Source of the DNA: Clostridia bacterium
GTDB taxonomy: Bacteria > Bacillota > Peptococcia > DRI-13 > UBA5745
Length of the DNA: 64,000 nucleotides
Assembly: GCA_018436095.1 (NCBI GenBank)
Contig: JAHDMJ010000018.1
Span: 186,001 to 250,000, forward strand
Direction of reading: 5' to 3'
The notes below the pieces were generated by a model, which had not been told where the DNA came from, did not search any database, and worked only from the letters and a program-made list of their open reading frames with translations. Made by a program: the position numbers and the translations under genes. The first letter of the stretch is position 1, and every line of letters begins with the position of its first letter. Below are positions 4,848 through 53,947 of this stretch, in pieces.

Positions 4848-5468
4848 TCAGTCTGCCAGGCTGACGATGTGGGCCAATACCTCCGCCGTTTTTTCCACGC
4901 CCAAGAGGCTGCTGTTGATAGACAGATGATAGCTTTCTTGTTTGCCCCAGCGGCTGTCGGTATAATAATTGTAGTAAGCCGCTCTTCTTTTGTCGATTTT
5001 CTCGATGGTTTCCCGTATCTTTTCCTGGGGCAGCTTATACTCATTAATAGCTCTATCTATGCGGTCTTTGATCGGCGCATGGGCAAAGACGCTGAACAGG
5101 TGAGGATGATCTTTTAAAACGTAATTGGCGCAACGGCCAATAATGACGCAGGAGCCTTCCCGGGCCGCATCCTTGATCAATCCGGATTGCAGCAGGAATA
5201 AGTGGTCGTTTAGCGGCATACTGACGCCTCCCGGATATTGGGCCCCCAAAGCGTAATTGCCCATGAGAGAGGAATAAAGAAAGCTGCTGGCAGGCCGCTC
5301 GTCAGCAGATTTTAAAATTTCTTCGTTATAGCCTGCTTTTTGGGCGGCTAATGAAATCAGGTGATTGTCGTAAAAAGGGATGGATAATATCTCCGCCAGC
5401 CTTTGACCGATAAGGCGGCCGCCGCTGCCGTACTGGCGGCTAATGGTGATTACCGTTTGTTTACTCAT
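4848..5468 (-). CDS. Cytidylate kinase-like family protein
   Basis: 206 residues. The N-terminus TVITISRQYGSGG is the P-loop region of the cytidylate-kinase-like (AAK6) family, and IIGRCANYVL is its second conserved block. The start at 5468 is chosen because AAAGGAG sits eight bases upstream; a GTG at 5477 would abut the ribosome site. Members occur widely in Clostridia beside unrelated genes; the true substrate is unknown, and the main CMP kinase is a different protein. It lies one base after the yigZ-like gene on the same strand. Confidence 0.85.
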   Translation of the reverse strand: MSKQTVITISRQYGSGGRLIGQRLAEILSIPFYDNHLISLAAQKAGYNEEILKSADERPASSFLYSSLMGNYALGAQYPGGVSMPLNDHLFLLQSGLIKDAAREGSCVIIGRCANYVLKDHPHLFSVFAHAPIKDRIDRAINEYKLPQEKIRETIEKIDKRRAAYYNYYTDSRWGKQESYHLSINSSLLGVEKTAEVLAHIVSLAD

Positions 5469-5469
5469 T

Positions 5470-6138
5470 CTACTCACTCCTTTGATGATTGCTGGGCTTC
5501 ATGATAATTTCGCCTTGCCAAAAATCAAGATATTCCATGGGGCCCGGTTGCAGCCGGCCTTGTCCGGCGGTAAGCTCCGCCACCAGTTTTTGAAGATTTT
5601 CCTCTTCTGCCGGGGGGATAAGCACCGTAAAAGTCACTTGCTCTAAATAGGTAGTATCCTTTAAAATATATCCTCTTTGAGCAAATTCCCGCTGAAATTT
5701 TCCCGTCAGGGAGTATTCGGTATGCACATAGCGGGAAAGATAAGGGAGCCGCTGAATAATTTTACCGGCCTCCAAAGCTATTTTGGCCCCCTGGGTATAG
5801 GCCCGCACCAGGCCGCCGGCGCCCAGCTTAATGCCGCCAAAATACCGGGTCACTACTACGGCCACATCCCGCAAGCCTTCTTTGCGGATGACTTCCAGCA
5901 CCGGAATACCGGCGGTGCCTTGGGGCTCGCCGTCGTCGCTGAAGCGCTCCCGGGCGCTGCCCAGCACATAAGCCCAGACATTATGAGCGGCATCCCAATG
6001 GGTTTTGCGGATTTCCTCAATGAACCGGAGGGCCGCCTCTTCCGTATCCACCGGCTTTGACCAGCCGATAAACCTGGAATGGGAAACGGTGAATTCATCC
6101 CGTCCTGCCTCCAGAACCGTCTTATAACTCTCTGTCAT
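5470..6138 (-). CDS. YigZ/IMPACT family protein
   Basis: 222 residues from the ATG at 6138, preceded by AGAGGTG. The N-terminal UPF0029 domain carries the family hallmark GEPQGTAGIPVLEVI and VVVTRYFGGIKLGAGGLVRAY; a C-terminal DUF1949 ferredoxin-like domain follows. Bacterial homologues are structurally related to eukaryotic IMPACT but their role is unsettled. It is transcribed divergently from mecA and leads into the kinase-like gene. Confidence 0.93.
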   Translation of the reverse strand: MTESYKTVLEAGRDEFTVSHSRFIGWSKPVDTEEAALRFIEEIRKTHWDAAHNVWAYVLGSARERFSDDGEPQGTAGIPVLEVIRKEGLRDVAVVVTRYFGGIKLGAGGLVRAYTQGAKIALEAGKIIQRLPYLSRYVHTEYSLTGKFQREFAQRGYILKDTTYLEQVTFTVLIPPAEEENLQKLVAELTAGQGRLQPGPMEYLDFWQGEIIMKPSNHQRSE

Positions 6139-6186
6139 TTGTTCACCTCTATGGTAAATATTTGACATTCTAACTATTATTCCTGC

Positions 6187-6216
6187 TTGCAGAGGACATG
6201 CTATTAAGAGTATAAT
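6187..6216 (+). promoter_or_regulatory. Sigma-A-type promoter for mecA
   Basis: TTGCAG at 6187-6192 and a perfect TATAAT at 6211-6216 are separated by 18 bases, about 94 bases before the mecA start, in the divergent gap after the yigZ-like gene. Confidence 0.7.
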
Positions 6217-6309
6217 GTATTAAGGGGTAGTGTAATTGTAGCAGAATGAACTCTGATCAAACTGCCGGAATAGTATAGAGAAATGCACTGCTGCCGGGAG
6301 GTGAAGCAA

Positions 6310-6930
6310 ATGAAATTTCGTAAAATTAATGAAGATAAAATACAAATCATCTTGACTACTCAGGATTTGGAAGAGAGGGACTTTCGCCGCTGGGAGATGA
6401 TGCCCATGAGCCCCAAACTCCAGGAGTTCTTTCATGATCTGCTGGAGCGGGCTTATAAAGAGTGCGGCTTTGAGATCAGCGATGATTCCCAATTGGTGGT
6501 GGAGGCCTATCCCCTTAATGCCGAGACCTTTGCCATTATTTTAACCAGGATTCCCGCCGGCTCTCAAGGAGAAGCCCATGGGGGCACTATCCATCTGGGC
6601 CAATTTGACCGGGATAGCGAAGAAGATTTGGAAGAGCTGGAGCGGGATTGCCATCAGGTATGGTGCTTTGCCGAACTTGAGGACTGCATCCGGGCCTGCA
6701 ATCGGCTGGAGCCTGCCCAGATTGAAGACAGTGCTTTGTACAAATTAGAGAAGCAGTACTTTTTGGCTGTTTCCACCACGAAAGAAGGCCAATTGGACGT
6801 AGCTGCTGTTTTAGGCGAATACGGCCACTGGAGCTTTGTGCCCAGGCCTTACTATGAGGAGCATGGCCAAGCGCTGATTAAGGAACACGCGGTAGTCAAC
6901 CTGGCTTCCCTGATCCGGCCGGAAGGCTGA
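6310..6930 (+). CDS. mecA: MecA-type adaptor protein for ClpC
   Basis: 206 residues from the ATG at 6310, which follows GGGAGGTG. The N-terminal block (MKFRKINEDKIQIILTTQDLEERDF) and the two-lobe architecture match the MecA/YpbH family, adaptors that deliver substrates to the ClpC-ClpP protease. The central linker is acidic (EEDLEELERD). Its substrate here is unknown; no competence genes lie nearby. Confidence 0.85.
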   Translation: MKFRKINEDKIQIILTTQDLEERDFRRWEMMPMSPKLQEFFHDLLERAYKECGFEISDDSQLVVEAYPLNAETFAIILTRIPAGSQGEAHGGTIHLGQFDRDSEEDLEELERDCHQVWCFAELEDCIRACNRLEPAQIEDSALYKLEKQYFLAVSTTKEGQLDVAAVLGEYGHWSFVPRPYYEEHGQALIKEHAVVNLASLIRPEG

Positions 6931-6957
6931 TGCTCAAGGGAAAAAGGGAGTAGGATT

Positions 6958-6977
6958 GGGCGCATTACGATGCGCCC
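6958..6977 (+). terminator. Hairpin after mecA, weak terminator
   Basis: GGGCGCA/TGCGCCC perfect seven-base stem with a six-base loop, 27 bases after the mecA stop. The tail is not a clean T run, so termination may be partial. Confidence 0.5.
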
Positions 6978-7048
6978 GTCCTTATGCATTTGTGAAAATT
7001 ATTACATGATTAGTGATTCAGAATATAAATAATAGGGGAAGAACATAG

Positions 7049-7702
7049 ATGGCGGCAAAAAAAACAATCACAAAAAAGCAAAAATTAGCCATGCTGGACA
7101 TTTTATCACAGAAGTACCAGAATATCGGCACGGCCCTGGAGTACAACAGCCCTTTTCAGCTTCTGGTCTCCACGGCTTTGGCGGCTCAGACCACCGACGT
7201 TCAGGTAAATAAAGTTACCCGGGCTTTATATGCCAAATACCCTGATCCCCAGAGTATGGCCGGTATTACGCCGGAAACGCTGATTCCCTATATCCAGAGC
7301 CTGGGGCTATACCGGAATAAAGCAAAAAACATTGCGGCTCTGGCCGAAATGTTGTTGCTGGAATTTGACGGCCAAGTGCCCCAAACCAGGGAGGAGCTGA
7401 TGAGGCTGCCGGGTGTGGGCCGCAAGACGGCCAATGTAGTGCTGGCCAACGCCTTTAAGATTCCGGCTTTTGCAGTAGATACCCATGTTTTTCGTGTGGC
7501 TAACCGCATGGGGCTGGCCTGGGGCAAGACGCCGGATGAGGTGGAGAGGGATGTTTGCAGCCTGATCCCCGAAAAAGACTGGGCCGACGCCCACCATTGG
7601 CTGATCTGGCATGGCCGCCGCTGCTGCAAAGCCCAGAATCCCGCCTGTGAAGAATGTCCTGTAGGTGATTTATGTCCTCGTATTATGGCGAAGCCATCAT
7701 AA
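7049..7702 (+). CDS. nth: Endonuclease III (DNA glycosylase/AP lyase)
   Basis: 217 residues. The helix-hairpin-helix LPGVGRKTANVVL contains the catalytic Lys, and VDTHVFRVANRMGL holds the catalytic Asp. The C-terminal cysteines in C-X6-C-X2-C-X5-C spacing bind a 4Fe-4S cluster. It removes oxidised pyrimidines in base-excision repair. An ATAGGGGAAG site precedes the ATG; pfkA follows after 25 bases. Confidence 0.96.
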   Translation: MAAKKTITKKQKLAMLDILSQKYQNIGTALEYNSPFQLLVSTALAAQTTDVQVNKVTRALYAKYPDPQSMAGITPETLIPYIQSLGLYRNKAKNIAALAEMLLLEFDGQVPQTREELMRLPGVGRKTANVVLANAFKIPAFAVDTHVFRVANRMGLAWGKTPDEVERDVCSLIPEKDWADAHHWLIWHGRRCCKAQNPACEECPVGDLCPRIMAKPS

Positions 7703-7727
7703 AATTAGACAATAGGAGCGTGGCAGA

Positions 7728-8831
7728 ATGATCAATCGTGTGGCTATCCTTACCGGCGGCGGTGATGCGCCGGGACTAAACGGCGTAATCCGGGGCGTAG
7801 CCCGGGCAGCGGAGAATATTTATCATGCCCAGGTTTTCGGTTTTATGGATGGATTTAAGGGCTTGATTGAAAACAAATATATGGTTCTTGACCGGGCCAA
7901 TACCTCCGGCATTCTGCACCGGGGCGGCACCATTTTGGGTACCAGCAACCGGGACAACCCCTTTCGCTACCCTATGGGCCGGGATGAAGAAGGCAGGATC
8001 ATCTTTGGCGACGTCTCCGATCAGGCCATCAATAATCTGAACCGCCTGGGTATTCAGGCTCTGATTGTTATTGGCGGCGACGGCAGCCTTCATATAGCCA
8101 AACAGCTTTCAGAAAAAGGCGTTAATGTGGTGGGGGTGCCCAAGACCATCGACAACGACCTGGATGCCACGGATCAGACCTTTGGTTTTGACACGGCCAT
8201 CAATACGGTGATGGAAGCCCTGGACCGGCTTCATACCACGGCGGAATCCCACCACCGCATCATGGTGGTGGAGGTTATGGGCCGTTATGCCGGCTGGATA
8301 GCTTTGCACAGCGGTATTGCCGGCGGCGCCGACGTTATTTTAATCCCTGAGATACCCTATGATATCAGTGAGATTGCCAAGAAAATCCGGCAGCGCTCCC
8401 GGATGGGCAAGCACTTCAGCCTGGTGACGGTGGCAGAAGGGGCTGTGGAAAAAGAAGGGGAGATGGTGGTGGCCGCCCATATTGAGGAGAGCACCGATCC
8501 CGTTCGTCTGGGGGGTGTAGGCCAGGTGGTGGCGGATAAACTCCACAAGTTTATGGGCTTGGAAAGCCGGACTACTGTTTTGGGCCATCTGCAAAGGGGC
8601 GGCAGCCCTACGGCAATGGACAGGATACTGACCACCAGGCTGGGGGTCAAGGCCATGGAGGTGGCTACCAAGGGACCCTGGAACCATATGGTATCCTTGC
8701 AAGGCAGCGAAATTGTGGTGGTGCCCATTGACAAAGCCATCGACAGCTTAAAAAGAGTGAATCCGGACAGCGAAATCGTCAGGGCGGCCAAGGCAGTAGG
8801 GATTTGTATGGGAGACAGATATGATGAATGA
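7728..8831 (+). CDS. pfkA: 6-phosphofructokinase, mixed-signature clade
   Basis: 367 residues, longer than the ~320 of the classical enzyme. TGGGDAPGLNGVIRG, GGDGSL, PKTIDND and MGRYAGWIAL are conserved. GGDGS (Gly at the phosphodonor position) is typical of ATP enzymes, whereas Lys in PKTIDND is typical of PPi enzymes; the combination matches the group III/actinobacterial-type ATP-PFKs. The phosphoryl donor should be treated as probable ATP, not certain. The stop overlaps the alr start by 11 bases. Confidence 0.93.
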   Translation: MINRVAILTGGGDAPGLNGVIRGVARAAENIYHAQVFGFMDGFKGLIENKYMVLDRANTSGILHRGGTILGTSNRDNPFRYPMGRDEEGRIIFGDVSDQAINNLNRLGIQALIVIGGDGSLHIAKQLSEKGVNVVGVPKTIDNDLDATDQTFGFDTAINTVMEALDRLHTTAESHHRIMVVEVMGRYAGWIALHSGIAGGADVILIPEIPYDISEIAKKIRQRSRMGKHFSLVTVAEGAVEKEGEMVVAAHIEESTDPVRLGGVGQVVADKLHKFMGLESRTTVLGHLQRGGSPTAMDRILTTRLGVKAMEVATKGPWNHMVSLQGSEIVVVPIDKAIDSLKRVNPDSEIVRAAKAVGICMGDRYDE

Positions 8832-10029
8832 AAGGTCAGGGAGCTGCCGGCCAGGTGAGGAGCGGTGGCCGGCAGAGGAAACGGCGGCGGCAGCGGAAGC
8901 AAGGGGGCAGCGGCCTTCCTTTGTTCAAGTAGATCTGGCTGCCATTGGCAGAAACGCCAAAAAATATAAGGAGCTGTTGGCAGAGGAGCCGGGTTGCCGT
9001 TTGATGGCGGTAGTGAAGGCCAATGCCTATGGCCATGGAGCCTTGCCGGTAGCCCGGGAGGCCCTGGCTGCCGGCGCCCATTGGCTGGGCGTGGCTTTAC
9101 CCCAGGAGGCCTTCGAATTGCGGCAAGGGGGAATCCAGGCTCCTATCCTGATTTTAGGTTACTCCGATCCGGCGGCTTATGAGGGCTTGATTAAAGAAAA
9201 CGTCAGTATTACCATTTTTTCTCCTGAGCAGGGCCGGGCTTTGGCTGAGGCCGCAGCGGCAATAGGACACAAAGCCCTCGTTCACCTCAAAATCGATACG
9301 GGCATGAGCCGCATCGGTTTTTGCCCCGGTGAGGCTGCCCTGAAGGATATCGTAGCCTTGGCCGCTTTGGGGGGACTGGAGCTGGAAGGCTGCTTTACTC
9401 ATTTTGCCCGGGCTGATGAAGATGATGAAGCAAGCTGGCGGCAGCAGCGGGAGGCCTTTGAGGATTTCCTGGCTGCCCTGGCGGCCAAAGGCCTGAGTTT
9501 CCCTCTGGTGCATTGCGCCAATACGGCGGCTATCATGAGGGGAGGGGCGGCCGGCATGAATATGTGCCGTCTGGGTATCGGCCTCTATGGGCTTTATCCT
9601 TCACCGGCGGCCAAAAGCTGGGGTTTGGGCCTTGAGCCGGCTCTTTCCTGGAAAAGCTGCCTCAGTCACGTCAAATGGCTGCCTCCCGGGAAGGGGGTCA
9701 GCTACGGGCACATCTGGAGGACAGAAAGAGAAACTTTGGTTGGTACGGTGCCCCTGGGCTATGCCGACGGCTATCCCCGCTCCCTGAGCAATAAAGGCAG
9801 GGTGCTGGTGGGCGGCAAAAGTGTGCCGGTTATCGGCAGGATCTGTATGGACCAGTTCATGGTGGATTTAACGGCGGTGCCCCAGGCCCGGCCGGGAGAT
9901 GAGGTAGTGCTCATCGGCAGACAGGACGCTGAGGAAATCAGTGTTGATGATCTGGCCGGTTTGGTCAATACGATCAACTATGAAGTCGTCTGTATGATAG
10001 GCGGCAGAATACCGAGGCGATATATATGA
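8821..10029 (+). CDS. alr: Alanine racemase
   Basis: 402 residues. The PLP lysine motif AVVKANAYGHGA and the C-terminal domain with VPLGYADGYPRSLS and GRICMDQFMVDLT are clear. About 35 extra N-terminal residues precede the conserved VDLAAIGRNAKKYKEL; a later start cannot be excluded, though the ATG at 8821 has a GGGAGA site. It converts L- to D-alanine for peptidoglycan. It overlaps pfkA and the next gene, so it is cotranscribed with the hydrogenase-like cassette, an unusual context. Confidence 0.95.
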   Translation: MMNERSGSCRPGEERWPAEETAAAAEARGQRPSFVQVDLAAIGRNAKKYKELLAEEPGCRLMAVVKANAYGHGALPVAREALAAGAHWLGVALPQEAFELRQGGIQAPILILGYSDPAAYEGLIKENVSITIFSPEQGRALAEAAAAIGHKALVHLKIDTGMSRIGFCPGEAALKDIVALAALGGLELEGCFTHFARADEDDEASWRQQREAFEDFLAALAAKGLSFPLVHCANTAAIMRGGAAGMNMCRLGIGLYGLYPSPAAKSWGLGLEPALSWKSCLSHVKWLPPGKGVSYGHIWRTERETLVGTVPLGYADGYPRSLSNKGRVLVGGKSVPVIGRICMDQFMVDLTAVPQARPGDEVVLIGRQDAEEISVDDLAGLVNTINYEVVCMIGGRIPRRYI

Positions 10030-10268
10030 TGATCAAAATTTGTGTTGGCAGTTCCTGTCATATTAAGGGTTCCGCTCAGGTCATTGAGGCCTTTCGTCAA
10101 GCTGTGGCCGAACGCCCTGAGTCCGAGCAAAATGAAATCCAATTGGGCGGAAGTTTTTGTATGGGCGAATGTCAAAAAGGGGTCAATGTTTCCATAGACG
10201 GCGTCATCTACCATCAAGTAACACCGGAACAGGTGCCCCAAATAATGGAGTTGAGAAAAGATGGCTGA
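10026..10268 (+). CDS. Thioredoxin-like 2Fe-2S ferredoxin protein
   Basis: 80 residues. Two N-terminal Cys (CVGSSC) and two further Cys (CMGEC) have the C-X4-C/C-X3-C layout of the thioredoxin-like 2Fe-2S (NuoE C-terminal) fold. Such single-domain proteins commonly precede [FeFe] hydrogenase genes and are likely electron partners. It overlaps alr by four bases and the hydrogenase gene by eight. Redox partner role is inferred from context. Confidence 0.85.
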   Translation: MMIKICVGSSCHIKGSAQVIEAFRQAVAERPESEQNEIQLGGSFCMGECQKGVNVSIDGVIYHQVTPEQVPQIMELRKDG

Positions 10269-11973
10269 AATAATTACGACCCAGCAGGCGGAATGCAAAG
10301 ACTGCTATCGCTGCTTGCGGGGCTGCCCCGTAAAATCCATCGGCTTTGTCACCAAGCAGGCAAAAATCCAAGAGGACCGCTGTATATTGTGCGGAAAATG
10401 CGTGGTGGAATGCCCCCAAAAGGCCAAGGTCTATATTAATGAAGTTGAAGAGATCCGCCGGCTTTTGCAAGGGGAAGAGCCGGTGGTTTTGAGTATTGCT
10501 CCCAGCTTTCTGGGCAGCTTTGAGGAAAAGCCCGGCCAGTTGTTTAACCGGATCTGTCAGGCCGGTTTTGCCGACGTGGAGGAGACGGCTATCGGCGCCG
10601 CCTTGACCACCCGGGAATACCGCCGTTTATTAGCCTCAGACCAATGGCAGGATAAAACGGGTCTTTCTACTTGCTGTCCGGTGATTGTTAATCTGGTGGA
10701 AAAATATCACCCCGCTTTGATGAACAACTTGCTGCCGGCCCTTTCGCCCATGGTAAGCCATGCCCGCCTGATCAAAAGCCAGCGGGGGGAAAACTGCAAA
10801 GTGGTTTTTGCCGGTCCTTGTATTGCCAAACTGGATGAGGCCAAAAAATTTGGTTTGGACGGCGCCTTAACCTTTGGCCAGCTAAAAGTACTCCTTCTGG
10901 AAATGGAGGGGCTGCCGGAGAAGAAAGCGCCGGAGCATTATAAATATGAAGAAAACTGGCTGCCCACCAGAAGCTATCCCATTCACAACGGTGTGCTGTT
11001 CAGCGTGAAGGGGGCCTGGGGCAGCAATCAGGATTACTGGTCCATTGAAGGCATCGAGCAATGTCAGGAAATTTTAAAAGCTTTGGAAAATGGGGATATC
11101 TCTCCCCGGTTCATCGAAATGATGGCTTGCCAGGGCGGCTGCGTAGGGGGGCCGGCCATCGACTCCCGTCATAATTTGTATTGGCGTAAGCAAAAAGTTC
11201 AGGATATAATTAAAACCAGCGAAAGCAAGTATTTGGCTGACATTCCCGAATTTCCCGGCACTATGTCCAAATCTTTTACCAACCGGCAAATAAAGGAAGG
11301 CCCTTTTACGGAAGCTCAGATCATGGAAGTGCTGCGCAAAATGGGCAAAGAAGGAGAAAAGGACCTCCGCAACTGCGAAGGCTGCGGCTACCCCAGCTGC
11401 CGGGATAAAGCTGTGGCTGTCCTTGCAGGCCTGGCTACTTTGGAGATGTGCATACCTTTTATGCGGTCAAAGGCGGAATCTCTGGCCAACATGGTGCTGG
11501 ACAATACGCCAAACGGTATATTGGTTCTTGACCATCACCTGCATTTGCGGGACTTTAATCCGGCGGCGGCCCGGATGCTGCCTCAGATACCTCTGGCCCA
11601 GGGCCTTAATTTGGGGGACTATGTGGATATCAGGCCCTACCGCCAGGCATTTTTAGCAAAAGAGAATGTTTATGGGGCCTTGGTGGAATATCCCCAGTGG
11701 AATAAAAATACCCGCCAGACCATCGTGCCTGTGCTTTCAGAGAGCCTGGTCATGGTGATTCTGGAGGATATTACCGATTTACTAAAAGAACGGCATGAGC
11801 TTGACGCCATGAAAGAAAACGTCATGGACAAAGCCAAAACCGTTATCGAGCAGCAAATGCGGGTAGCCCAGGAGATCGCCGGCCTGCTGGGAGAGACTAC
11901 AGCGGAAACAAAGGCCACCTTATACGAATTATTGAAGCATCTGGAGGACAGGGGCAATGGCAATATCCTTTGA
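10261..11973 (+). CDS. hydS: Group C-like sensory [FeFe] hydrogenase with PAS domain
   Basis: 570 residues. Order: two 4Fe-4S ferredoxin motifs (residues ~12-55), the H-cluster domain, a CEGCGYPSC iron-sulfur FES motif (~371-395), a PAS domain (~405-505) and a coiled-coil tail. The three H-cluster signatures are divergent: STCCPV (~138), GPCIAK (~185) and MMACQGGCVGGP (~288). All four cluster-binding Cys are kept. This domain order matches the putative sensory [FeFe] hydrogenases (HydS, group C), thought to report H2 or redox state. It overlaps the phosphatase gene downstream by 17 bases. Confidence 0.88.
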   Translation: MAEIITTQQAECKDCYRCLRGCPVKSIGFVTKQAKIQEDRCILCGKCVVECPQKAKVYINEVEEIRRLLQGEEPVVLSIAPSFLGSFEEKPGQLFNRICQAGFADVEETAIGAALTTREYRRLLASDQWQDKTGLSTCCPVIVNLVEKYHPALMNNLLPALSPMVSHARLIKSQRGENCKVVFAGPCIAKLDEAKKFGLDGALTFGQLKVLLLEMEGLPEKKAPEHYKYEENWLPTRSYPIHNGVLFSVKGAWGSNQDYWSIEGIEQCQEILKALENGDISPRFIEMMACQGGCVGGPAIDSRHNLYWRKQKVQDIIKTSESKYLADIPEFPGTMSKSFTNRQIKEGPFTEAQIMEVLRKMGKEGEKDLRNCEGCGYPSCRDKAVAVLAGLATLEMCIPFMRSKAESLANMVLDNTPNGILVLDHHLHLRDFNPAAARMLPQIPLAQGLNLGDYVDIRPYRQAFLAKENVYGALVEYPQWNKNTRQTIVPVLSESLVMVILEDITDLLKERHELDAMKENVMDKAKTVIEQQMRVAQEIAGLLGETTAETKATLYELLKHLEDRGNGNIL

Positions 11974-13105
11974 GGTAGGCATCGCCTCCCAAAATAAAGT
12001 AGACGAAGTCCTCTGCGGCGATGTGGTGGAGGTACAGCGGGATGAGCAGTCTACGGTCATCGTTTTATCCGATGGCTTAGGCAGCGGCGTTAAAGCCAAT
12101 ATTCTGGCCACCCTTACCGCCCGCATTGCTTCCCGGCTTTTAATCCGGGGCGTGCCTTTGTCGGAAGTGGTGGAGACGATTTCCAGTACCCTGCCGGTCT
12201 GCCAGGTGCGCAATTTGGCTTATTCCACTTTTTCCATATTACAAATTTTTAAAAACGGCACGGGGTATCTCATTCAATATGATAATCCCAGAGCTATGCT
12301 TTTACGGAGAAACCAGCCGCCGATCCCTCTGAAAGGGAAGGAAAGGCAATACGGCAGCCGCAAGATCAGTGAGACAATGTTGGAGTTGGATGACGGCGAT
12401 ACCCTGATTTTGTGCAGTGACGGCGTCACCCATGCAGGAGTGGAGGCTTTGCTGCCCCTTGGACTGGGGGAAGAAGGCCTGGAGCGGATGCTGCGCCAGG
12501 AGGTGGGGTTAAAAAACTCTGCTCAAATTCTGGCCGAGGAAATTGTGGAATGCTGCGAGTGTTACAGCGCCGGTACCATGGGGGACGATACCACTGCCGT
12601 GGTAGTGAAGGTGCGGCCTTTGATCAAAGGTGTGCTGCTGTCGGGCCCGCCCCTGGATAAGGCTCAGGACCAGGCTATGGTGGATGCTTTTTTTGAGGGA
12701 AAAAAAACCAGGGCTATCTGCGGCGGCACCTCCGCCAATATCGTTTCCCGGCTGCGGAATTTGCCTATCGACGCTGATTTGAGCTATGTGGATCCCAAAA
12801 TCCCCCCTATTGCCAAAATGCCCGGCGTTGACCTGGTGACGGAAGGGGTCCTGACGCTAACCAGGGTGGTGCAGGTCTTGGAATCAGGCCAGATCCGTAT
12901 TAAAAACAAGAAGGACGGAGCCAGTCTGCTGCTGCAATGGCTGCTTTCCTGCGATGAAATCGATTTGCTGGTGGGGCTGCGGATCAACGCCGCCCATCTT
13001 ACCCCCGGCCTGCCTTACAGCATGGGGCTGCGTTCCACAGTTTTGCAGAAGCTTCATGACTTGCTGAGTGAGCGGGGCAAGATCTGCCGGCTGCACTGGT
13101 ATTGA
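11957..13105 (+). CDS. SpoIIE-family PP2C serine phosphatase
   Basis: 382 residues. The PP2C-like metal motifs are visible: VLSDGLGSGVKA, LILCSDGVTHAG and GDDTTAVVVKV. SpoIIE-type phosphatases dephosphorylate serine, usually on anti-sigma-factor antagonists. About 140 residues beyond the phosphatase core (from ~residue 230) form a conserved C-terminal extension often seen in hydrogenase-linked members. The 17-base overlap with the hydrogenase-PAS gene strongly implies coupled output: H2 or redox sensing to protein dephosphorylation. The target protein is not in this window. Confidence 0.88.
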   Translation: MAISFEVGIASQNKVDEVLCGDVVEVQRDEQSTVIVLSDGLGSGVKANILATLTARIASRLLIRGVPLSEVVETISSTLPVCQVRNLAYSTFSILQIFKNGTGYLIQYDNPRAMLLRRNQPPIPLKGKERQYGSRKISETMLELDDGDTLILCSDGVTHAGVEALLPLGLGEEGLERMLRQEVGLKNSAQILAEEIVECCECYSAGTMGDDTTAVVVKVRPLIKGVLLSGPPLDKAQDQAMVDAFFEGKKTRAICGGTSANIVSRLRNLPIDADLSYVDPKIPPIAKMPGVDLVTEGVLTLTRVVQVLESGQIRIKNKKDGASLLLQWLLSCDEIDLLVGLRINAAHLTPGLPYSMGLRSTVLQKLHDLLSERGKICRLHWY

Positions 13106-13135
13106 TGTTAACTTAAAATATGGTGGTTGCGAAGA

Positions 13136-13864
13136 ATGAATCAAAGGCTAACATTTCATAAGGATTTTTTTCAAGGTTTGCAAGATGGCATTCCCGTAGG
13201 GCTGGGGTATTTGTCGGTTTCCTTTTCCTTTGGCGTTATGGCTGTCAATATGGGGCTGCCGGTTTGGTCGGCAGTACTGGTTTCTTTAAGCAATTTAACG
13301 TCGGCGGGACAATTCGCCGGTATCGGCTTAATGGTGGCGGGGGCTCCTTTGGTGGAAATGGTTCTGACTCAATTGGTGATCAATATAAGATATTCGCTGA
13401 TGTCCATGTCCCTTTCCCAAAAAGCCGATGGAACAATGACGGCTTTACACCGGTTTTTGACGGCTTTTATGATTACCGATGAGATATTTGCCCTGGCCAG
13501 TCAAAAGGAAGGGCAGGTAAGCCGGTATTATATGTATGGGGTAGGCTTGATCCCGGTAGTCTCCTGGACCTTGGGTACCCTTTTGGGGGCTGTGGCCGGA
13601 GGATTGATGCCAGAGGCTTTACGGTCGGCGCTGAATGTGGCTTTGTATGCCATGTTTATCGCTATTATTCTGCCAACCGCCCGGCACAGCAGGCCGGTGC
13701 TGCTGGTGATCCTGCTGGCCGGCGGCGCCAGTTGTTTTATGCGCTATGCACCGGTGGTTTCCCGGCTTTCCGCCGGCTTTGCCATGATCCTTTGCGCGGT
13801 GGCGGCGGCATTTGTGGCCGCTTTGCGCTATCCTGTGGAGGAGGTGGAGCATGGAGACCGCTAA
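13136..13864 (+). CDS. azlC: AzlC-family branched-chain amino acid exporter, large subunit
   Basis: About 242 residues, mostly hydrophobic with roughly eight predicted membrane segments and the N-terminal FFQGLQDGIPVGLGYLSVSFSFGV block typical of AzlC. It forms an exporter for branched-chain amino acids with AzlD. The ATG at 13136 fits a GGTGG site nine bases upstream; a TTG at 13127 abuts that site. The end overlaps azlD by 14 bases. Confidence 0.92.
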   Translation: MNQRLTFHKDFFQGLQDGIPVGLGYLSVSFSFGVMAVNMGLPVWSAVLVSLSNLTSAGQFAGIGLMVAGAPLVEMVLTQLVINIRYSLMSMSLSQKADGTMTALHRFLTAFMITDEIFALASQKEGQVSRYYMYGVGLIPVVSWTLGTLLGAVAGGLMPEALRSALNVALYAMFIAIILPTARHSRPVLLVILLAGGASCFMRYAPVVSRLSAGFAMILCAVAAAFVAALRYPVEEVEHGDR

Positions 13865-14168
13865 CCTGCTGCTTTATACGGGCGTTATGGCTTTGGTAAC
13901 TTATTTGATCCGCATGCTGCCCCTGGCTTTGATCCGCCGCAAGATCGCAAGCCCCTTGATCCGCTCTTTTCTGTATTACGTGCCCTATGCGGTGCTGGCA
14001 GCCATGATTTTGCCGGATATTTTATATGCTACCCGCTCTTTTTGGTCGGCGGCGGCGGCTTTGGCGGTGGGAGCGGGTTTGGCTTTGCGGGGCCAAAAAC
14101 TGATCGTAGTAGCGATTTTTGCCTGCCTTACCGTATTTGTGGCAGAGCTTTTATTGGGAATAGTTTAA
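13851..14168 (+). CDS. azlD: AzlD-family transporter small subunit
   Basis: 105 residues with about four membrane segments; the N-terminal TYLIRMLPLALIRRKI is typical of AzlD. The ATG at 13851 follows GGAGGTGGAG within the end of azlC, showing translational coupling. Works with AzlC in amino-acid export. Confidence 0.92.
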   Translation: METANLLLYTGVMALVTYLIRMLPLALIRRKIASPLIRSFLYYVPYAVLAAMILPDILYATRSFWSAAAALAVGAGLALRGQKLIVVAIFACLTVFVAELLLGIV

Positions 14169-14192
14169 GTCCCGGGAGGAAAGAGGAAACCT

Positions 14193-15338
14193 TTGCAGAA
14201 AAACATGAAGTTAAATCAAGAGGATATGGCGCTGTTGGCCGGGCTTCCCGGCCTTTTTTTAGAGTGGTACAGGACGGCGGCCCGCAATCTGCCCTGGCGG
14301 CAAAACCGGCAGCCTTATGGCGTCTGGCTGTCAGAAATCATGCTGCAGCAAACCCGGGTGGAGGCCGTAAAAGGCTTTTATCAGCGGTTTTTAGAGGCGT
14401 TGCCGGATATTGAGGCTTTGGCTGCCGCTTCGGAAGAGCAGGTGTTTAAGCTGTGGGAAGGGCTGGGCTACTACCGGCGGGCCAGAAACCTCCACCGGGC
14501 TGCTCAGCTTGTGGTGTCCGAACATCAGGGTGTTTTTCCTGCCGATTATGAAGGGATACTGGCCTTGCCGGGTATCGGCGAATATACGGCGGGAGCTGTG
14601 GCCTCTATCTGCTTTGGCATAGCCAAACCGGCAGTTGATGGCAATGTTCTGCGGGTGATGGCCCGGCTTTTGGACAGTGATGAAGCCATTGATCAGCCGG
14701 CCTTTAAGAAAAAGGTGAGCCAAGGCCTGGAGGCTGTGATGGCGGGCATTTCGGGAGCTGCCGTCCCTGATTATATAAGCAGGTCTTTTGATCCGGGGGA
14801 TTTTAACCAAAGCCTGATGGAAATCGGGGCCATGATCTGCCTGCCCAAAGGCATGCCGAAATGCTGCCAATGTCCGGCCCGGCAGCTCTGCCGCAGTCAT
14901 GCTTCCGGCAGGGCGGAACTTTTGCCGGTGCGGCAAGTGAAAAAACCCCGCCGCATAGAAGAAAGAACCGTATTTATTTTGCAGCGGGGTGAGGAAATTG
15001 CTCTTTGCCGCCGCTGTGACCAGGGCCTTTTGGCGGGCTTGTGGGAGCTGCCTAATGTGGCGGGCCGCTTAAGTCCCGATCAGGCTATGGCCCAGGCTGC
15101 TGCCTGGGGTGTCTATCCTGTGGCCCTGGAGAAGTCTTTAGAGCGAATCCACGTTTTCAGCCATGTGGAGTGGCGGATGACCGGCTATTTCATAGGCTGT
15201 GCTGCCGGCGGCGAAAGGACGGTTCTTCAAAAGGAAGAGTTGCAGGATACGGCAAAGGAGCTTGAATGGACTTCCGTCCGCCAGAGGCAGTTGGCCCATC
15301 CCCTGCCGGCGGCTTTCAGCTTATTTTTGGAAGAGTGA
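14193..15338 (+). CDS. mutY: A/G-specific adenine glycosylase MutY
   Basis: 381 residues. The N-terminal HhH-GPD domain has the catalytic Glu in SEIMLQQTRV, the HhH LPGIGEYTAGAV, the catalytic Asp in AVDGNVLRV, and Cys in C-X6-C-X2-C-X5-C spacing for a 4Fe-4S cluster. The C-terminal NUDIX-like domain that recognises 8-oxoG is present. TTG at 14193 has an AGAGG site; ATG at 14205 is the alternative. It removes A opposite 8-oxoguanine. Confidence 0.95.
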   Translation: MQKNMKLNQEDMALLAGLPGLFLEWYRTAARNLPWRQNRQPYGVWLSEIMLQQTRVEAVKGFYQRFLEALPDIEALAAASEEQVFKLWEGLGYYRRARNLHRAAQLVVSEHQGVFPADYEGILALPGIGEYTAGAVASICFGIAKPAVDGNVLRVMARLLDSDEAIDQPAFKKKVSQGLEAVMAGISGAAVPDYISRSFDPGDFNQSLMEIGAMICLPKGMPKCCQCPARQLCRSHASGRAELLPVRQVKKPRRIEERTVFILQRGEEIALCRRCDQGLLAGLWELPNVAGRLSPDQAMAQAAAWGVYPVALEKSLERIHVFSHVEWRMTGYFIGCAAGGERTVLQKEELQDTAKELEWTSVRQRQLAHPLPAAFSLFLEE

Positions 15339-15419
15339 GGGGAATGAAAATTTTCTTCTTATTTGCATAAATGTTTACTTATGCTCATTCTCTTATCGTT
15401 GTCGAACAATTTTAAGCCC

Positions 15420-15448
15420 TTGTGCGCTTATAAAATTTATGATAATAT
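15420..15448 (+). promoter_or_regulatory. Putative promoter for tig
   Basis: TTGTGC at 15420-15425 and TAATAT at 15443-15448 with a 17-base spacer, in the 203-base AT-rich gap before tig. Confidence 0.5.
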
Positions 15449-15541
15449 CTACAAGAATAAGTTGCTTTTCTTTATATGAGAAATAGATAAGGCTATCATA
15501 GGATAAGCCTTTGGCAAGTTAATACAGGAGGAATGTGTGAA

Positions 15542-16837
15542 ATGAAAGTCAATGCAGAAAAACTGGAAGGCAATAAGGCCAAACTCACGATTGAGGTGGC
15601 CCCGGAAACCTTTGAGAAATCTATGGATAAAGCTTTTCGCCAAGTGGTGAAAAAGATCAGTATTCCCGGTTTTCGCAAAGGAAAAGCGCCCCGGCATGTG
15701 GTGGAGCGGATGTATGGCCGGGAAATTCTTTTGGAAGATGCTATTAATGATGCTGTTCCCGAAGCCTTCAGCCAGGCTCTTGATGAGATTGGCTCCGAGT
15801 ATGAATGCATTGTTTACCCCAAATATGAGATCGTTTCCTCTGAAAAAGGCCAGGGTTTGGTTTTTACGGCCACTTATGATTTAAAACCGGAAATCAAGCT
15901 GGGCCCATACAAAGGTATGGAGCTGGAGAAGATTTCTGAGGCAGCCGAAGAAGGCGCCGTAGAAAAACAGCTTAAAGCTATGCAGGAAAGATTTGCCCGC
16001 CTGGAAAAAACCGAAGGTCCCGCCGTAGTAGGCGATGTATGCACCATCGACTTTTTGGGCAAGGTAGATGATATTCCTTTTGAGGGCGGTGCAGGCCAGA
16101 ATCATCCTCTGGAGCTGGGCAGCGGCTCCTTTATTCCCGGCTTTGAAGAGCAATTGGTAGGCGCTAAAGTTGGCGACGAGGTAGCGGTAAATGTTACATT
16201 CCCCGAGGATTACCGTGCTACGGAGCTGGCCGGTAAGGCTGCCGTCTTTGATGTTACCGTCAAAGAAATCCAGCATAAGATTTTGTCTGAGATGGATGAC
16301 GAATTTGCCAAGGACGTCTCCGAGTTTGAGACTCTTGAAGAGTTAAAGAAGGATCTGGAAGAAAAATTAAATAAAGAAGCCAAAGAAAAAGCCCAGGCCG
16401 ATCTGGAAAACAAGGCTGTAGAAAAGGCTGTTGAAGAAGCTAATCCGGAGCTGCCGGAGAGCATGCTGGCCATGAGACAGGATCAATTGCTGGAGAATTT
16501 TGCCCGCCAGATTCGCCGTCAGGGTATTGAGCTGGAGCAATATATGGAGCTTACCGGTATGAAGCTGGAAGACATCCGGGAAAACTTCAAAGAAAGAGCC
16601 CAGAAGGAGCTGCAAACGGAGCTGGTTCTGGAAGCTGTGGCCAAGGCTGAAGGTGTGGTCATCGGCGATGAGGATCTGGAGGATGAGTATAAGCGTCTGG
16701 CAGATCAGACCGGCAGACCGGCAGAGGAGATCAAAGAGATTTACGGCGGCAACAAGACTATGGTGGAATCCCTGAAATTCAATCTGATGATGAATAAGGC
16801 CATCAAAGTTCTGACGGACAACGCCAAGATCAAATAA
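15542..16837 (+). CDS. tig: Trigger factor
   Basis: 431 residues. N-terminal ribosome-binding domain with the signature PGFRKGKAPRHVVERMYG, a FKBP-type prolyl isomerase domain (VGDVCTIDFLGKVDDIPFEGG), and a C-terminal chaperone domain with SEFETLEELKKDLEEKL. The ATG at 15542 is ten bases after AGGAGG; the in-frame ATG at 15533 is only one base away from it. Trigger factor folds nascent chains at the ribosome exit. It is followed by clpP-clpX, the usual order. Confidence 0.97.
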   Translation: MKVNAEKLEGNKAKLTIEVAPETFEKSMDKAFRQVVKKISIPGFRKGKAPRHVVERMYGREILLEDAINDAVPEAFSQALDEIGSEYECIVYPKYEIVSSEKGQGLVFTATYDLKPEIKLGPYKGMELEKISEAAEEGAVEKQLKAMQERFARLEKTEGPAVVGDVCTIDFLGKVDDIPFEGGAGQNHPLELGSGSFIPGFEEQLVGAKVGDEVAVNVTFPEDYRATELAGKAAVFDVTVKEIQHKILSEMDDEFAKDVSEFETLEELKKDLEEKLNKEAKEKAQADLENKAVEKAVEEANPELPESMLAMRQDQLLENFARQIRRQGIELEQYMELTGMKLEDIRENFKERAQKELQTELVLEAVAKAEGVVIGDEDLEDEYKRLADQTGRPAEEIKEIYGGNKTMVESLKFNLMMNKAIKVLTDNAKIK

Positions 16838-16861
16838 ACACCACCGGGATCGAATCAGGCC

Positions 16862-16913
16862 AGAGGGCAGCCGGATGTACCGTTTCAAATACAGGTGCAG
16901 GACGCTGCCCTCT
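16862..16913 (+). terminator. Stem-loop between tig and clpP
   Basis: A perfect ten-base stem (AGAGGGCAGC with GCTGCCCTCT) encloses a 32-base loop just after tig. There is no T run, so it may be a processing or attenuation structure, not a classical terminator. Confidence 0.5.
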
Positions 16914-16932
16914 ATAGTATATACGGCAATTA

Positions 16933-16961
16933 TTGAAAGTATTAGTTGATATTCGTAGATA
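16933..16961 (+). promoter_or_regulatory. Putative promoter for clpP-clpX
   Basis: TTGAAA at 16933-16938 and TAGATA at 16956-16961 with a 17-base spacer, 31 bases before the clpP start. A direct repeat ATTAGTTGA overlaps it. No CtsR-type tandem heptamers were seen. Confidence 0.5.
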
Positions 16962-16991
16962 TTAGTTGAATAAAGAGATGAGGTGTAAAAA

Positions 16992-17624
16992 ATGACCGAG
17001 ATTTATCGTCCTGCCATGAATGCCTATGTGCCTATTGTTGTGGAGCAGTCCAGCCGGGGTGAACGCTCCTATGATATTTACTCCCGTTTGCTGAAAGACC
17101 GTATCGTTTTCTTGGGTACGGAAATCGATGATACCGTAGCCAATTTGGTGGTAGCTCAGTTGTTATTCCTATATGCGGAGGATCCGGATAAGGATATTTC
17201 GCTGTATATTAACAGTCCCGGCGGTTCGGTAACGGCTGGTATGGCTATTTACGATACCATGCAGTATATCAGAGCCGATGTTTCTACCATTTGCATCGGC
17301 CTGGCGGCCTCCATGGGAGCTTTCCTCCTGGCTGCCGGCGCTAAAGGCAAGCGGTTTGCTTTACCTAATGCGGAGATTATGATTCATCAGCCTTCTGCCG
17401 GCGCCCGGGGTCAGGTGACGGATATCGAAATCCACGCCCGCCGCTTGTTGCAGGTTAAGGAGCGCTTGAATCAGATATTGGCGGAGAATACAGGCCAGCC
17501 TTTGGAGAAAATTAAGCAGGATGTGGAGCGGGACTTCTTCTTTGAAGCTCAGGATGCTAAGGAATACGGCCTGATCGACGACATCCTGACGCAGATTCCT
17601 AAGGATGCCATAGGGAAAAAATAA
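16992..17624 (+). CDS. clpP: ATP-dependent Clp protease proteolytic subunit
   Basis: 210 residues. The nucleophile Ser lies in [11 protein letters not shown], the His in MIHQPSAG, and the oxyanion strand [11 protein letters not shown] is intact. ClpP tetradecamers degrade substrates unfolded by ClpX or ClpC; both ClpX (next gene) and a MecA adaptor (6.3 kb) are encoded here. clpX follows after 41 bases. Confidence 0.98.
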
Positions 17625-17665
17625 AGGATACCGGTTGGCCCAAGGCTGCCGGTGCGAGGTGATAT

Positions 17666-19048
17666 ATGGTTAAATATGACGATGGCGAACATGATGTAAA
17701 GTGTTCTTTTTGCGGCAAAAGCCAGGACATGGTAGCGAAGCTGGTGGCAGGACCCAGCGTTTACATTTGTGACGAATGTATTGAGCTGTGCAATGAAATT
17801 ATCGGCACGATCACTGATGAGGATGATTCCCTGGATGATAAATCCTGGGGCAGGGCTTTGCCGCCTAAAGAAATTAAAGATATTCTCGATCAATACGTAG
17901 TGGATCAGGATGTGGCGAAAATTGCTTTAGCCGTAGCCGTTTACAATCACTATAAGCGTATAGGCAGCCCCGGGGCCAAAGGGAAAAAGAGCAAGGAAAA
18001 GAATAGCCGTACCGCCAAAAATGATAAGGGAGAGCAGGTAGAGCTCCAAAAAAGCAATATCTTGCTTATCGGTCCTACAGGCAGCGGCAAAACCCTGTTG
18101 GCTCAAACCCTGGCCAAGATTTTGAAGGTGCCTTTTGCCATTGCCGACGCCACTTCGTTAACGGAAGCCGGTTACGTAGGCGAGGATGTGGAAAATATTC
18201 TGCTAAAGCTGATTCAAGCCGCCGACTACGATATCGAGAAAGCAGAACGGGGCATCATCTATATCGACGAAATCGATAAGATCACCCGGAAGTCGGAAAA
18301 CCCTTCCATAACCCGGGATGTTTCCGGCGAAGGCGTTCAGCAGGCTTTGCTGAAAATCCTGGAGGGCACAGTAGCCAGCGTGCCGCCTCAGGGCGGGCGT
18401 AAGCATCCCCATCAGGAGTTCCTGCAGTTGGATACGTCCAATGTGCTGTTTATTTGCGGCGGCGCTTTTGAGGGCATCGACAAAATCATCGGCAACCGGG
18501 TAGGCAAAAAAACCATGGGCTTTGGCGCCAAAGTGGAAAGCCGTAAGGAAACGAATTTGGCGGAGTACCTGAAGCAGCTAATGCCTCAGGATCTAATCAA
18601 ATACGGTATGATACCGGAATTTGTGGGCCGGGTGCCGGTGACCGTATCCCTGACCCCCCTCGACCGCAATGCTCTGGTGCGGATTTTGACGGAGCCCAAA
18701 AATGCTTTGGTTCGCCAGTATCAGGCTTTGCTGGAAATGGACGGTTGTGTGCTGGAGTTCACGGAGGAAGCTTTGGAAGCTATTGCTGATGAGGCGATCA
18801 AGCGTAATACCGGGGCCCGGGGACTCAGAGCGATTATGGAAGACTTGATGCGCAAAACCATGTTTGAGCTGCCTTCCCGCAAAGATATCCGCAAGTGCCT
18901 GGTGACTAAGGAAGCTGTGACAGACGGGGCCGAGCTGACCTTGCTGACCACATTAGCCGGCACCGGTACCGCCGTTGCCGCAGGAGCAGCTCCCGCCAAA
19001 GAAAAAGCCAAAGATGGCAAGGATGGTAAAGAGGAAGCCAGCGCTTGA
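17666..19048 (+). CDS. clpX: ATP-dependent Clp protease ATP-binding subunit ClpX
   Basis: 460 residues. Zinc-binding domain with [14 protein letters not shown], Walker A GPTGSGKT, the pore-loop GYVGEDVEN, Walker [10 protein letters not shown] and sensor regions. The C-terminus carries an extra ~40-residue Ala/Lys-rich tail not needed in most homologues. It unfolds substrates for ClpP. A good terminator follows at 19117. Confidence 0.98.
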
Positions 19049-52867: not shown

Positions 52868-53554
52868 GTGGCTTGCGACAAAAAAGTATCTAACGCCGTA
52901 ATCCGGCGTTTGCCGAAATATTACCGGTATCTGTCTACCCTTCAGCAGATGGGAATCAGCCGGGTATCCTCAAAAGACTTAAGCCAGCGTCTGGGAATCA
53001 CGGCTTCCCAGGTGCGGCAGGATTTTTTTCATTTCGGCGGCTTCGGCTTGCAGGGATATGGCTATGATGTAGCCAGCCTGCTGCAGGAGATTGGCTGTAT
53101 ACTGGGGCTTGACCGCACCTACAATATGGTTTTAATCGGCGCCGGTAATCTGGGCCAGGCTATAGCAAAGCACAGCAGCTTTGAGAAAAGAGGCTTTCAA
53201 ATCGTTGGGGTCTTTGACGCCAATCCTCATCTGATAGGCAAGCAAATTAAAGGAATCGATATTCTGCACTATGATCAGCTTGAGGATTTTGTAAAGCGGC
53301 ATGCCGTGGATATTGCCGTCATTACTGTGCCGCGGATCTATGCCCAGGATGTGATGCAGCGGGTAGTGGACTTAGGGATAAAGGGCATCTGGAATTTTGC
53401 TTCCGTGGAACTGGACGTGCCGGAGGATGTATCTATTGAGAATATCCACCTAAGTGAAAGCCTGATGACACTGGCTTATGAAATGAAACGTAAAAAAGAA
53501 AAACTACCCAAAAAAACAAGACCTCTCAATGAGCAAAAGAAACTCCAACCCTGA
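52868..53554 (+). CDS. rex: Redox-sensing transcriptional repressor Rex
   Basis: 228 residues with GTG start after GGAGAG. N-terminal winged helix (VIRRLPKYYRYLSTLQQMGISRVSS..GITASQVRQDFFHFGGFG) and a Rossmann domain with GAGNLGQAIAKH for NADH. Rex leaves DNA when NADH/NAD is high and controls fermentation and hydrogenase genes. Directly downstream is a hydrogenase operon with a Rex-like operator, a strong contextual fit. Confidence 0.97.
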   Translation: MACDKKVSNAVIRRLPKYYRYLSTLQQMGISRVSSKDLSQRLGITASQVRQDFFHFGGFGLQGYGYDVASLLQEIGCILGLDRTYNMVLIGAGNLGQAIAKHSSFEKRGFQIVGVFDANPHLIGKQIKGIDILHYDQLEDFVKRHAVDIAVITVPRIYAQDVMQRVVDLGIKGIWNFASVELDVPEDVSIENIHLSESLMTLAYEMKRKKEKLPKKTRPLNEQKKLQP

Positions 53555-53597
53555 CCTTTCCGGCCAAGCCGGCGGGTATAATCGGAGGAGCAGATCA

Positions 53598-53670
53598 AAA
53601 AGGCCTCTCAGTGCAGGATGATACCTCTGCGGTAACATATCACCTTGCACCGGGAGGCCTTCTTGTTTTT
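53598..53670 (+). terminator. Terminator after rex
   Basis: AAGGCCTC with GAGGCCTT closes a long imperfect hairpin (inner GTGCA/TGCAC), followed by CTTGTTTTTC. Confidence 0.8.
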
Positions 53671-53683
53671 CTTTTAGCGGAGA

Positions 53684-53701
53684 TCGTTAAATATTTGACG
53701 A
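53684..53701. promoter_or_regulatory. Rex-like operator upstream of the hydrogenase operon
   Basis: TCGTTAA-ATAT-TTGACGA is an 18-bp palindrome with one mismatch, close to the Rex consensus TTGTTAA-N4-TTAACAA. The TTGACG half could serve as a -35 box for a promoter with ATAAAA at 53718, so binding would block transcription. Confidence 0.65.
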
Positions 53702-53788
53702 AGATGAAGGGGTAAACATAAAAACCTTAGCAAGTTTTCAACACAAGCTGTCAAATAAAAAACTATGCTTGCATAAGGCGAAAGAGCA

Positions 53789-53908
53789 ATGTACACTACA
53801 AAAAAACAGCGGCCGGGTAAGCTGGAGAAACGGCCGGGTAAGCTGAAGCAGCAGCAGGGCAGGCTAAAAAGGCCCGGCAAGCTGAAGGGCAGGGTAGAAA
53901 AAGGGTAG
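53789..53908 (+). CDS. Possible 39-residue Lys/Arg-rich repeat peptide
   Basis: An open frame with RPGKL repeated three times plus a QGRL variant (MYTTKKQRPGKLEKRPGKLK..), in the hydrogenase leader. It has only a weak ribosome site (AAAGAG) and could be chance within repetitive DNA. The repeats are imperfect at DNA level (CGGCCGGGTAAGCTG). Confidence 0.3.
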   Translation: MYTTKKQRPGKLEKRPGKLKQQQGRLKRPGKLKGRVEKG

Positions 53909-53947
53909 GGTAGAGGTAAGAAGGACAGGGTAGGAGGAGAAGGAAAG

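Follow-up and report, generated by a model that had tools for sequence, protein, structure and literature searches.

What is the role of a [FeFe]-hydrogenase that carries a PAS-like domain, sits behind a run of bacterial housekeeping genes and has the gene for a protein phosphatase overlapping its end? This question is raised by a 64,000-nucleotide stretch (hereinafter the window; G000:C4:186001-250000) of the 3.7 Mb draft genome of a Clostridia bacterium of the UBA5745 lineage. Here, three overlapping genes on the forward strand follow pfkA and alr, namely, a gene for a small thioredoxin-like [2Fe-2S] protein of 80 amino acids (aa) in the position of hfsA (10026-10268; PF01257, E 4.9e-12; cysteine pattern C-x4-C ... 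C-x3-C), a gene for a HydS/HfsB-like sensory [FeFe]-hydrogenase of 570 aa (10261-11973; Fer4, PF02906 with E 1.4e-42, and PF04060), and a gene for an HfsC-like SpoIIE-type PP2C phosphatase of 382 aa (11957-13105; PF07228, E 8.8e-16, 58.8 bits). The triplet belongs to an established class, in which a group C 'sensory' [FeFe]-hydrogenase forms a module with a phosphatase. We consider it likely that the cassette comprises a HydS (HfsB-like) sensor, an HfsC-like phosphatase dedicated to it and a small [2Fe-2S] protein as partner, with HydS relaying the signal to the phosphatase.

When 299 genomes of the phylum were searched with HydS and phosphatase profiles, all 85 genomes that encode a full-length HydS also had the phosphatase, so the pairing is obligate from the side of HydS. 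The phosphatase was detected in 9 of the 214 genomes that have no full-length HydS, and six of these 9 contain a partial or fused HydS match (Fisher p ~1e-64 for co-occurrence across the 299 genomes, the species not being independent observations). The association extends to gene order. Among the 104 HydS loci, a sample that is weighted to gut genomes, the phosphatase directly follows HydS in 96, and two more loci end at a contig edge; the two genes overlap in 77 loci, mostly by 8 or 4 bases, and a [2Fe-2S] gene lies directly upstream of HydS in 78. By these genome comparisons, HydS and the phosphatase form one unit. The original prediction of a group C-like sensory hydrogenase coupled to a phosphatase is thus borne out, and the existence of a sister clade that joins this head to a sigma-54 domain, described below, points in the same direction.

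The HydS of the window starts with two [4Fe-4S] motifs (residues 1-66; C12, C15, C18, C22, C41, C44, C47 and C51), followed by the H-domain (residues 67-300; PF02906), a C-terminal FeS domain (residues 346-408; PF04060, 34.9 bits; C372, C375, C380 and C397), a PAS-like domain (residues 409-504; a PF13188 match just below the cut-off) and C-terminal signalling helices (residues 505-566; 11773-11958 on the forward strand), which hold the conserved block QMRVAQEIAGLLGETTAETK and are the proposed phosphatase contact. The predicted structural model (mean predicted local distance difference test, pLDDT, 86) has five strands between helices in the region 419-503, followed by two long helices (505-543 and 548-566), and its catalytic part matches CbA5H, HydABC and CpI; for the PAS-like region, no separate fold match was obtained. 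Altogether, about 160 residues follow the FeS domain and include the PAS-like region, in contrast to group D (M2e), for which the lack of a PAS-like domain at this place is a criterion. In a phylogenetic tree that did not include TmHydS, the sensory hydrogenase of Thermotoga maritima, or the HydS of Ruminococcus albus, the window protein fell inside the HydS clade, with Ruminococcus bromii, Desulfotomaculum and others, and apart from the group A and B enzymes of the same genome, which also encodes the H-cluster maturase HydF.

Conservation is distributed unevenly along HydS. Columns that are at least 90% conserved among the 104 proteins make up 34% of the C-terminal helices (513-562), 30% of the FeS domain and 29% of the N-terminal clusters, compared to 14% of the H-domain and 3% of the PAS domain. 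The C-terminal helices, with the block named above, and the FeS domain are the best conserved parts of the protein, with the N-terminal clusters about level. Between the window genome (G000) and its sibling G004, the ratio of nonsynonymous to synonymous substitution rates (dN/dS) was 0.015 for the FeS domain, 0.048 for the H-domain and 0.17 for PAS, with a range of 0.015-0.09 outside PAS, which is the least constrained part of the protein between these two genomes.

The hydrogenase had been predicted, from the motifs STCCPV and GPCIAK, to have lost part of the canonical motif context and, possibly, to sense more than it catalyses. Both motifs are present as described but to call them a loss is misleading. 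Motif L1, STCCPV (10660-10700), contains C138, equivalent to C299 of CpI, and the ligand C139 (C300); motif L2, GPCIAK (10807-10830), has G185 at the position of M353 and the ligand C187 (C355); and motif L3, EMMACQGGC (11113-11157), all three on the forward strand, has M288 at the position of M497 and the ligands C290 (C499) and C294 (C503). Accordingly, the two motifs in question hold between them both of their H-cluster cysteines as well as C299, and the four H-cluster ligands are intact in the window and invariant in the 104 HydS. In the second sphere, the window HydS has Gly at M353, as does TmHydS, whereas C299 and M497 are unaltered. Because Gly occupies the M353 position in 94 of the 104 proteins, GPCIAK represents the family norm and not decay; C299 is kept in 75 of them, so that the Ala of TmHydS at this position is atypical of our sample; and Met is found at M497 in 14. 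The combination Cys-Gly-Met at these three positions is limited to the window and eight loci from the same taxonomic class. Decay of the active site is ruled out by the invariance of the ligands together with the low dN/dS. By contrast, the proton relay positions E279, S319 and E282 are all replaced in the window HydS, and the suggestion that the protein senses more than it catalyses fits this loss as well as the published work on TmHydS and on the TamHydS enzyme.

TmHydS shares with the window protein the accessory [4Fe-4S] clusters, the H-cluster and the Gly at the M353 position, has a PAS domain where the window protein has a PAS-like one, and differs from it in having A131 and S267 where the window has Cys and Met (PMC10055695). 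TamHydS, a putative sensory enzyme of group D/M2e, resembles the window HydS in the C-terminal [4Fe-4S] domain and the lost proton relay but has no PAS domain, and its neighbours are a HATPase and an AraC regulator (PMC8163306, PMC13104023). H2 oxidation by TmHydS fell by ~40% upon the single change A131C and by ~95% upon S267M, which also shifted the potential of the H-cluster (PMC10055695). To judge from the alignment, the window presents, in another background, a natural combination at the very positions engineered as A131C and S267M; the effect of the Cys/Met pair in this background is not inferable from TmHydS alone. The existence of a lineage that is naturally variant at both positions is relevant to the question, posed by the authors of the TmHydS study, of whether residue 497 tracks environmental H2 (PMC10055695).

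The phosphatase, too, has an intact catalytic site. Its residues 1-222 comprise a SpoIIE-type PP2C domain in which the metal-site residues D22, D39, D155, D210 and D211 are invariant in 93 sequences, and the PDB matches of the structural model (pLDDT 88) are SpoIIE (5mqh/5ucg) and 3pu9. The protein has no N-terminal regulatory linker, the first PP2C strand starting at residue 3. Residues 224-382 (window 12626-13102) form a second, well-conserved alpha/beta domain that lies outside any Pfam model and contains the motifs GPP, CGGT (GGT), LVTEGVLT (TEG) and VGxxxN; a PDB fold search with this domain gave, among the matches listed, PP2C matches only. A phosphoheptose isomerase was the subject of a single weak sequence match to this domain (E 0.084), which we do not believe.

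The HydS search also retrieved proteins of other genomes that join the HydS head (two [4Fe-4S] motifs, H-domain and FeS domain) to a sigma-54 activation domain (L064-L069, L072 and L191-L220), usually with a Fis-type helix-turn-helix; the PAS domain is either present or absent, and the FeS domain is always kept. Full-length matches to this fusion occur in 34 of the 299 genomes, and the fusions make up a clade (SH-like approximate likelihood ratio test, SH-aLRT, 99) that adjoins the one of HydS with phosphatase. Of 30 loci, 19 have a -24/-12 site, with no more than one mismatch, on the same strand within 600 base pairs (bp) 3' of the fused gene, against an average of 0.155 in shuffles; no such site was found in the 600 bp 5' of the fused gene in any of the 30 loci, on the opposite strand, or in 66 kb of gene body. 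Among the genes that come next are those for periplasmic [NiFe]-hydrogenase subunits, hydABC, and a formate transporter gene accompanied by one for a molybdopterin oxidoreductase; the site often precedes [NiFe]-hydrogenase small-subunit genes. The fusions, the sites and the hydrogenase neighbours together indicate that the head is a transferable regulatory module with a changeable output, tied to H2 metabolism, for which PAS is dispensable. As a set of predicted architectures and promoters, the sister clade lends independent support to a signalling role. All 36 fusions checked (L064-L067, L069, L072 and L191-L220) have CxxC (e.g. LFCKGC) in place of CxxxC between the C499 and C503 ligands, so this branch may carry a modified cluster; in these 36, position 497 is Leu and position 299 is Pro, Tyr, Ala or Ser. 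No description of a HydS-sigma-54 fusion was found in the openly accessible literature, subscription papers being outside the search. In one of the loci (L064:7064-9306, genome G009), the HydS-sigma-54 gene appears split into two overlapping frames (533 and 217 aa), possibly by a frameshift or a sequencing error.

How might the signal pass from one protein to the other? The H-domain would react slowly with H2 or else would equilibrate with reduced ferredoxin via the N-terminal clusters and the [2Fe-2S] protein; the changed state of the H-cluster would then shift the C-terminal FeS domain and the PAS-like domain; the signal would reach the C-terminal helices, which might act in trans as the linker controlling the PP2C phosphatase; and the phosphatase, conceivably, would dephosphorylate a protein that adjusts fermentation or hydrogenase expression. 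The pair would, in effect, work like RsbP (PAS - coiled coil - PP2C) split over two chains. In RsbP and RsbU of Bacillus subtilis, a sensor domain and a helical linker (PAS and coiled coil in RsbP) control PP2C, and RsbP dephosphorylates RsbV (PMC3183031, PMC12143880); control of PP2C by coiled-coil linkers is common to several outputs (PMC12143880). However, RsbP and RsbU are single polypeptides whereas the window has two chains, and the order sensor-linker-PP2C is not found on either of them, so the comparison extends solely to the manner of working.

Several observations weigh against this proposal. Methionine at the M497 position, as in the window, cost TmHydS (S267M) ~95% of its activity (PMC10055695). 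The PAS match of HydS reaches 20.5 bits, below the Pfam cut-off of 21.8 for PF13188. Neither a partner kinase nor a STAS substrate gene was found in the cassette, and the only two STAS genes of the genome sit elsewhere, in SpoIIAA/AB and RsbU-like modules. Moreover, we know of no experiment that shows H2 acting on any HydS-linked phosphatase. At two loci of related lineages (L098:3436-3993 and L152:3443-4003), genes for HATPase_c-type proteins lie, in the same orientation, upstream of those for HydB, HydA, HydS and the phosphatase, and their products are candidates for an opposing kinase. An APH-type kinase-like gene (~249 aa; L141:6847-7596) lies directly upstream of a [2Fe-2S]-HydS-phosphatase triplet, with similar-sized genes in many gut loci.

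A known system with the same order of small protein, HydS (PAS-bearing there) and serine phosphatase is HfsA-HfsB-HfsC(-HfsD) of Thermoanaerobacterium saccharolyticum and T. thermosaccharolyticum (PMC5707799, PMC11837493). The window shares with it the direct succession of HydS and serine phosphatase (hfsB-hfsC), and the [2Fe-2S] protein is in the position of HfsA and may be its counterpart. No hfsD hydrogenase was found at the window site, where azlC follows the phosphatase, and because hfsD is absent downstream, we denote the window cassette hfsBC-like and not an hfsABCD operon. A second hydrogenase does follow in G007, G008, G009, G012, G016, G031 and G033, and belongs to group B1 by TIGR04105 in the two that were tested (G008 and G009). 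In Thermoanaerobacterium, ethanol rises when hfsA or hfsB is deleted but not when hfsC or hfsD is (PMC5707799); these genetics fit a circuit. As summarised in PMC6776011 (Zheng 2014 as cited there), the HydS of R. albus likewise belongs to group C and has a putative Ser/Thr phosphatase next to it; it bears a PAS domain, where the window protein has a PAS-like one, and its gene lies in an eight-gene cluster that includes an alcohol/aldehyde dehydrogenase and is strongly regulated in co-culture. By contrast, the window has pfkA-alr upstream and no alcohol/aldehyde dehydrogenase or kinase gene in the cassette.

The same features could be interpreted differently if HydS sensed the general redox state (ferredoxin or Fe-S integrity) and not H2; the H-cluster would then be either a relic or a buffer that responds slowly to redox changes, and the electrons would come from the [2Fe-2S] protein. 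This would accommodate the frequent presence of the [2Fe-2S] gene directly upstream of HydS, the loss of the canonical proton relay, the equivalence of M288 to the low-activity S267M variant, and the shortened H-cluster loop, CxxC for CxxxC, of the sigma-54 relatives. Nevertheless, the invariance of the four ligands, the strong selection on the H-domain and the functional H-cluster found in TmHydS and TamHydS (PMC10055695, PMC8163306) speak against such a role, and we regard it as unlikely. Scarcely credible, in our view, is that HydS is chiefly an enzyme, a slow uptake hydrogenase that feeds the [2Fe-2S] protein, with the phosphatase as a co-expressed passenger: although the H-cluster ligands and C299 are kept, and TmHydS does turn over H2 (PMC10055695), the obligate pairing with the phosphatase, the strong conservation of the C-terminal helices, which have no catalytic role, and the fusion of the sister-clade heads to transcription activators all oppose it, as does the increase of total hydrogenase activity upon deletion of hfsB (PMC5707799).

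A further alternative concerns the genes upstream, pfkA (6-phosphofructokinase; 7728-8831, forward strand; TIGR02483, 451.8 bits) and alr (alanine racemase; 8821-10029, forward strand; TIGR00492, 379.6 bits), to which the original prediction had linked the cassette functionally. The run from mecA or nth to the phosphatase could be a regulon through which the H2 status would tune glycolysis and the supply of cell-wall precursors. The 11 and 4 bp overlaps with pfkA and alr are retained in G004, and the linkage is common to two genera in which HydS is 67% identical. However, pfkA or alr is near HydS in only 4 of the 104 loci, all from the family of the window (4 of the 9 family genomes); G001, G002, G003 and G005 retain pfkA-alr or alr without the cassette; two further alr homologues are present in the genome; and co-transcription would supply the sensor but would not make pfkA and alr its targets. 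We therefore consider a regulon highly improbable. As this gene neighbourhood occurs in a single family and the content of the slot behind alr varies, the data do not support a functional link of the cassette to the two genes; as a general feature, such a link is rejected by the 104 loci and the sibling genomes with an empty slot.

What is conserved in the family is the run mecA-nth-pfkA-alr-[slot]-mutY-tig-clpP-clpX (window 6283-19048; L184-L187). Immediately after alr comes mutY in G001 and G003, and azlC-azlD in G002 and G005; in the window, azlC and azlD lie on the far side of the cassette (13127-14168, forward strand; PF03591 and PF05437). The triplet thus occupies a variable slot of a housekeeping run. 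In G007 and G008, the slot is taken up by a fuller cassette, which additionally encodes a second [2Fe-2S] protein and one more hydrogenase (in G008, group B1 by TIGR04105), and G009, G012, G016, G031 and G033 have the fuller cassette at other sites, with a Rex-like gene after it in G009. Judging from these arrangements, the simplest history would be the insertion of an hfsABCD-like unit behind alr, followed by the loss of the hydrogenase in the genus of the window and of the cassette in some siblings, although independent insertions into the slot could have occurred as well. The overlap with alr probably gives co-expression, and the position behind pfkA-alr is most simply interpreted as co-expression with a steady housekeeping run, not as joint regulation of pfkA and alr.

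Returning to the sensor with its dedicated phosphatase, we tentatively suggest, considering both branches jointly, that sensory [FeFe]-hydrogenases might be an exchangeable sensor head of Bacillota, which in one branch would control PP2C in trans via the C-terminal helices, as a 'split RsbP', and in the sister branch would be part of sigma-54 activators driving adjacent [NiFe]- and [FeFe]-hydrogenase operons, with the Cys/Met pair of the window perhaps shifting the H2 set point. A 2026 study called finding the interaction partner critical for its group D enzyme (PMC13104023). For the group C-like family, the phosphatase is indicated as the partner by its almost invariable pairing with HydS and by the conservation of the C-terminal helices, which also suggests the segment involved, and the relatives give an idea of how sensors of this type may transmit what they sense. 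The sigma-54 sister clade offers a one-protein system, with predicted promoters, for studying sensing by such a head. The interest of the locus rests mostly on this broader comparison and not on the window alone. The position of the cassette is lineage-specific, and its active-site variant is instructive.

The genes themselves appear sound. The cassette coordinates and the overlaps of 8 and 17 bases reported initially are exact; along pfkA, alr, the [2Fe-2S] gene, HydS and the phosphatase, the four overlaps are 11, 4, 8 and 17 bases, and all five genes are intact. The start codon of alr is uncertain because the first ~25 aa are not conserved and most homologues align from residue 18-29 on. Shine-Dalgarno-like GGAG or GAGG sequences precede the starts of the [2Fe-2S], HydS and phosphatase genes. 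Gene order and all four overlaps are identical in G004, and the dN/dS values between the two genomes (pfkA, 0.039; alr, 0.108; [2Fe-2S], 0.090; HydS, 0.080; phosphatase, 0.033) indicate strong purifying selection; the five genes are therefore real and under selection. A recent foreign origin is not supported, the GC content at third codon positions (GC3) of hydS (0.60) and of the phosphatase gene (0.65) being similar to that of the neighbours; the short [2Fe-2S] gene alone has a lower GC3 (0.47). Promoter-like matches in 5400-15600 were near chance, and a terminator scan of the same region was not informative because the matches, though above chance, lay mostly inside genes.

The window genome encodes other hydrogenases as well. 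A second sensory hydrogenase, group D-like, of 435 aa, with the FeS domain and no PAS (L079:8008-10552; G000:C37:51007-53551), adjoins a HATPase and an OmpR-type response regulator. Thus, this genome has one sensory head beside a phosphatase and another beside a kinase-like ATPase. Farther along the window (52868-57427), a rex-like gene is followed by hydC, hydB and hydA (group A HydABC), and a further HydABC cluster just upstream of the window (L073:8937-13275) ends with another small [2Fe-2S] gene.

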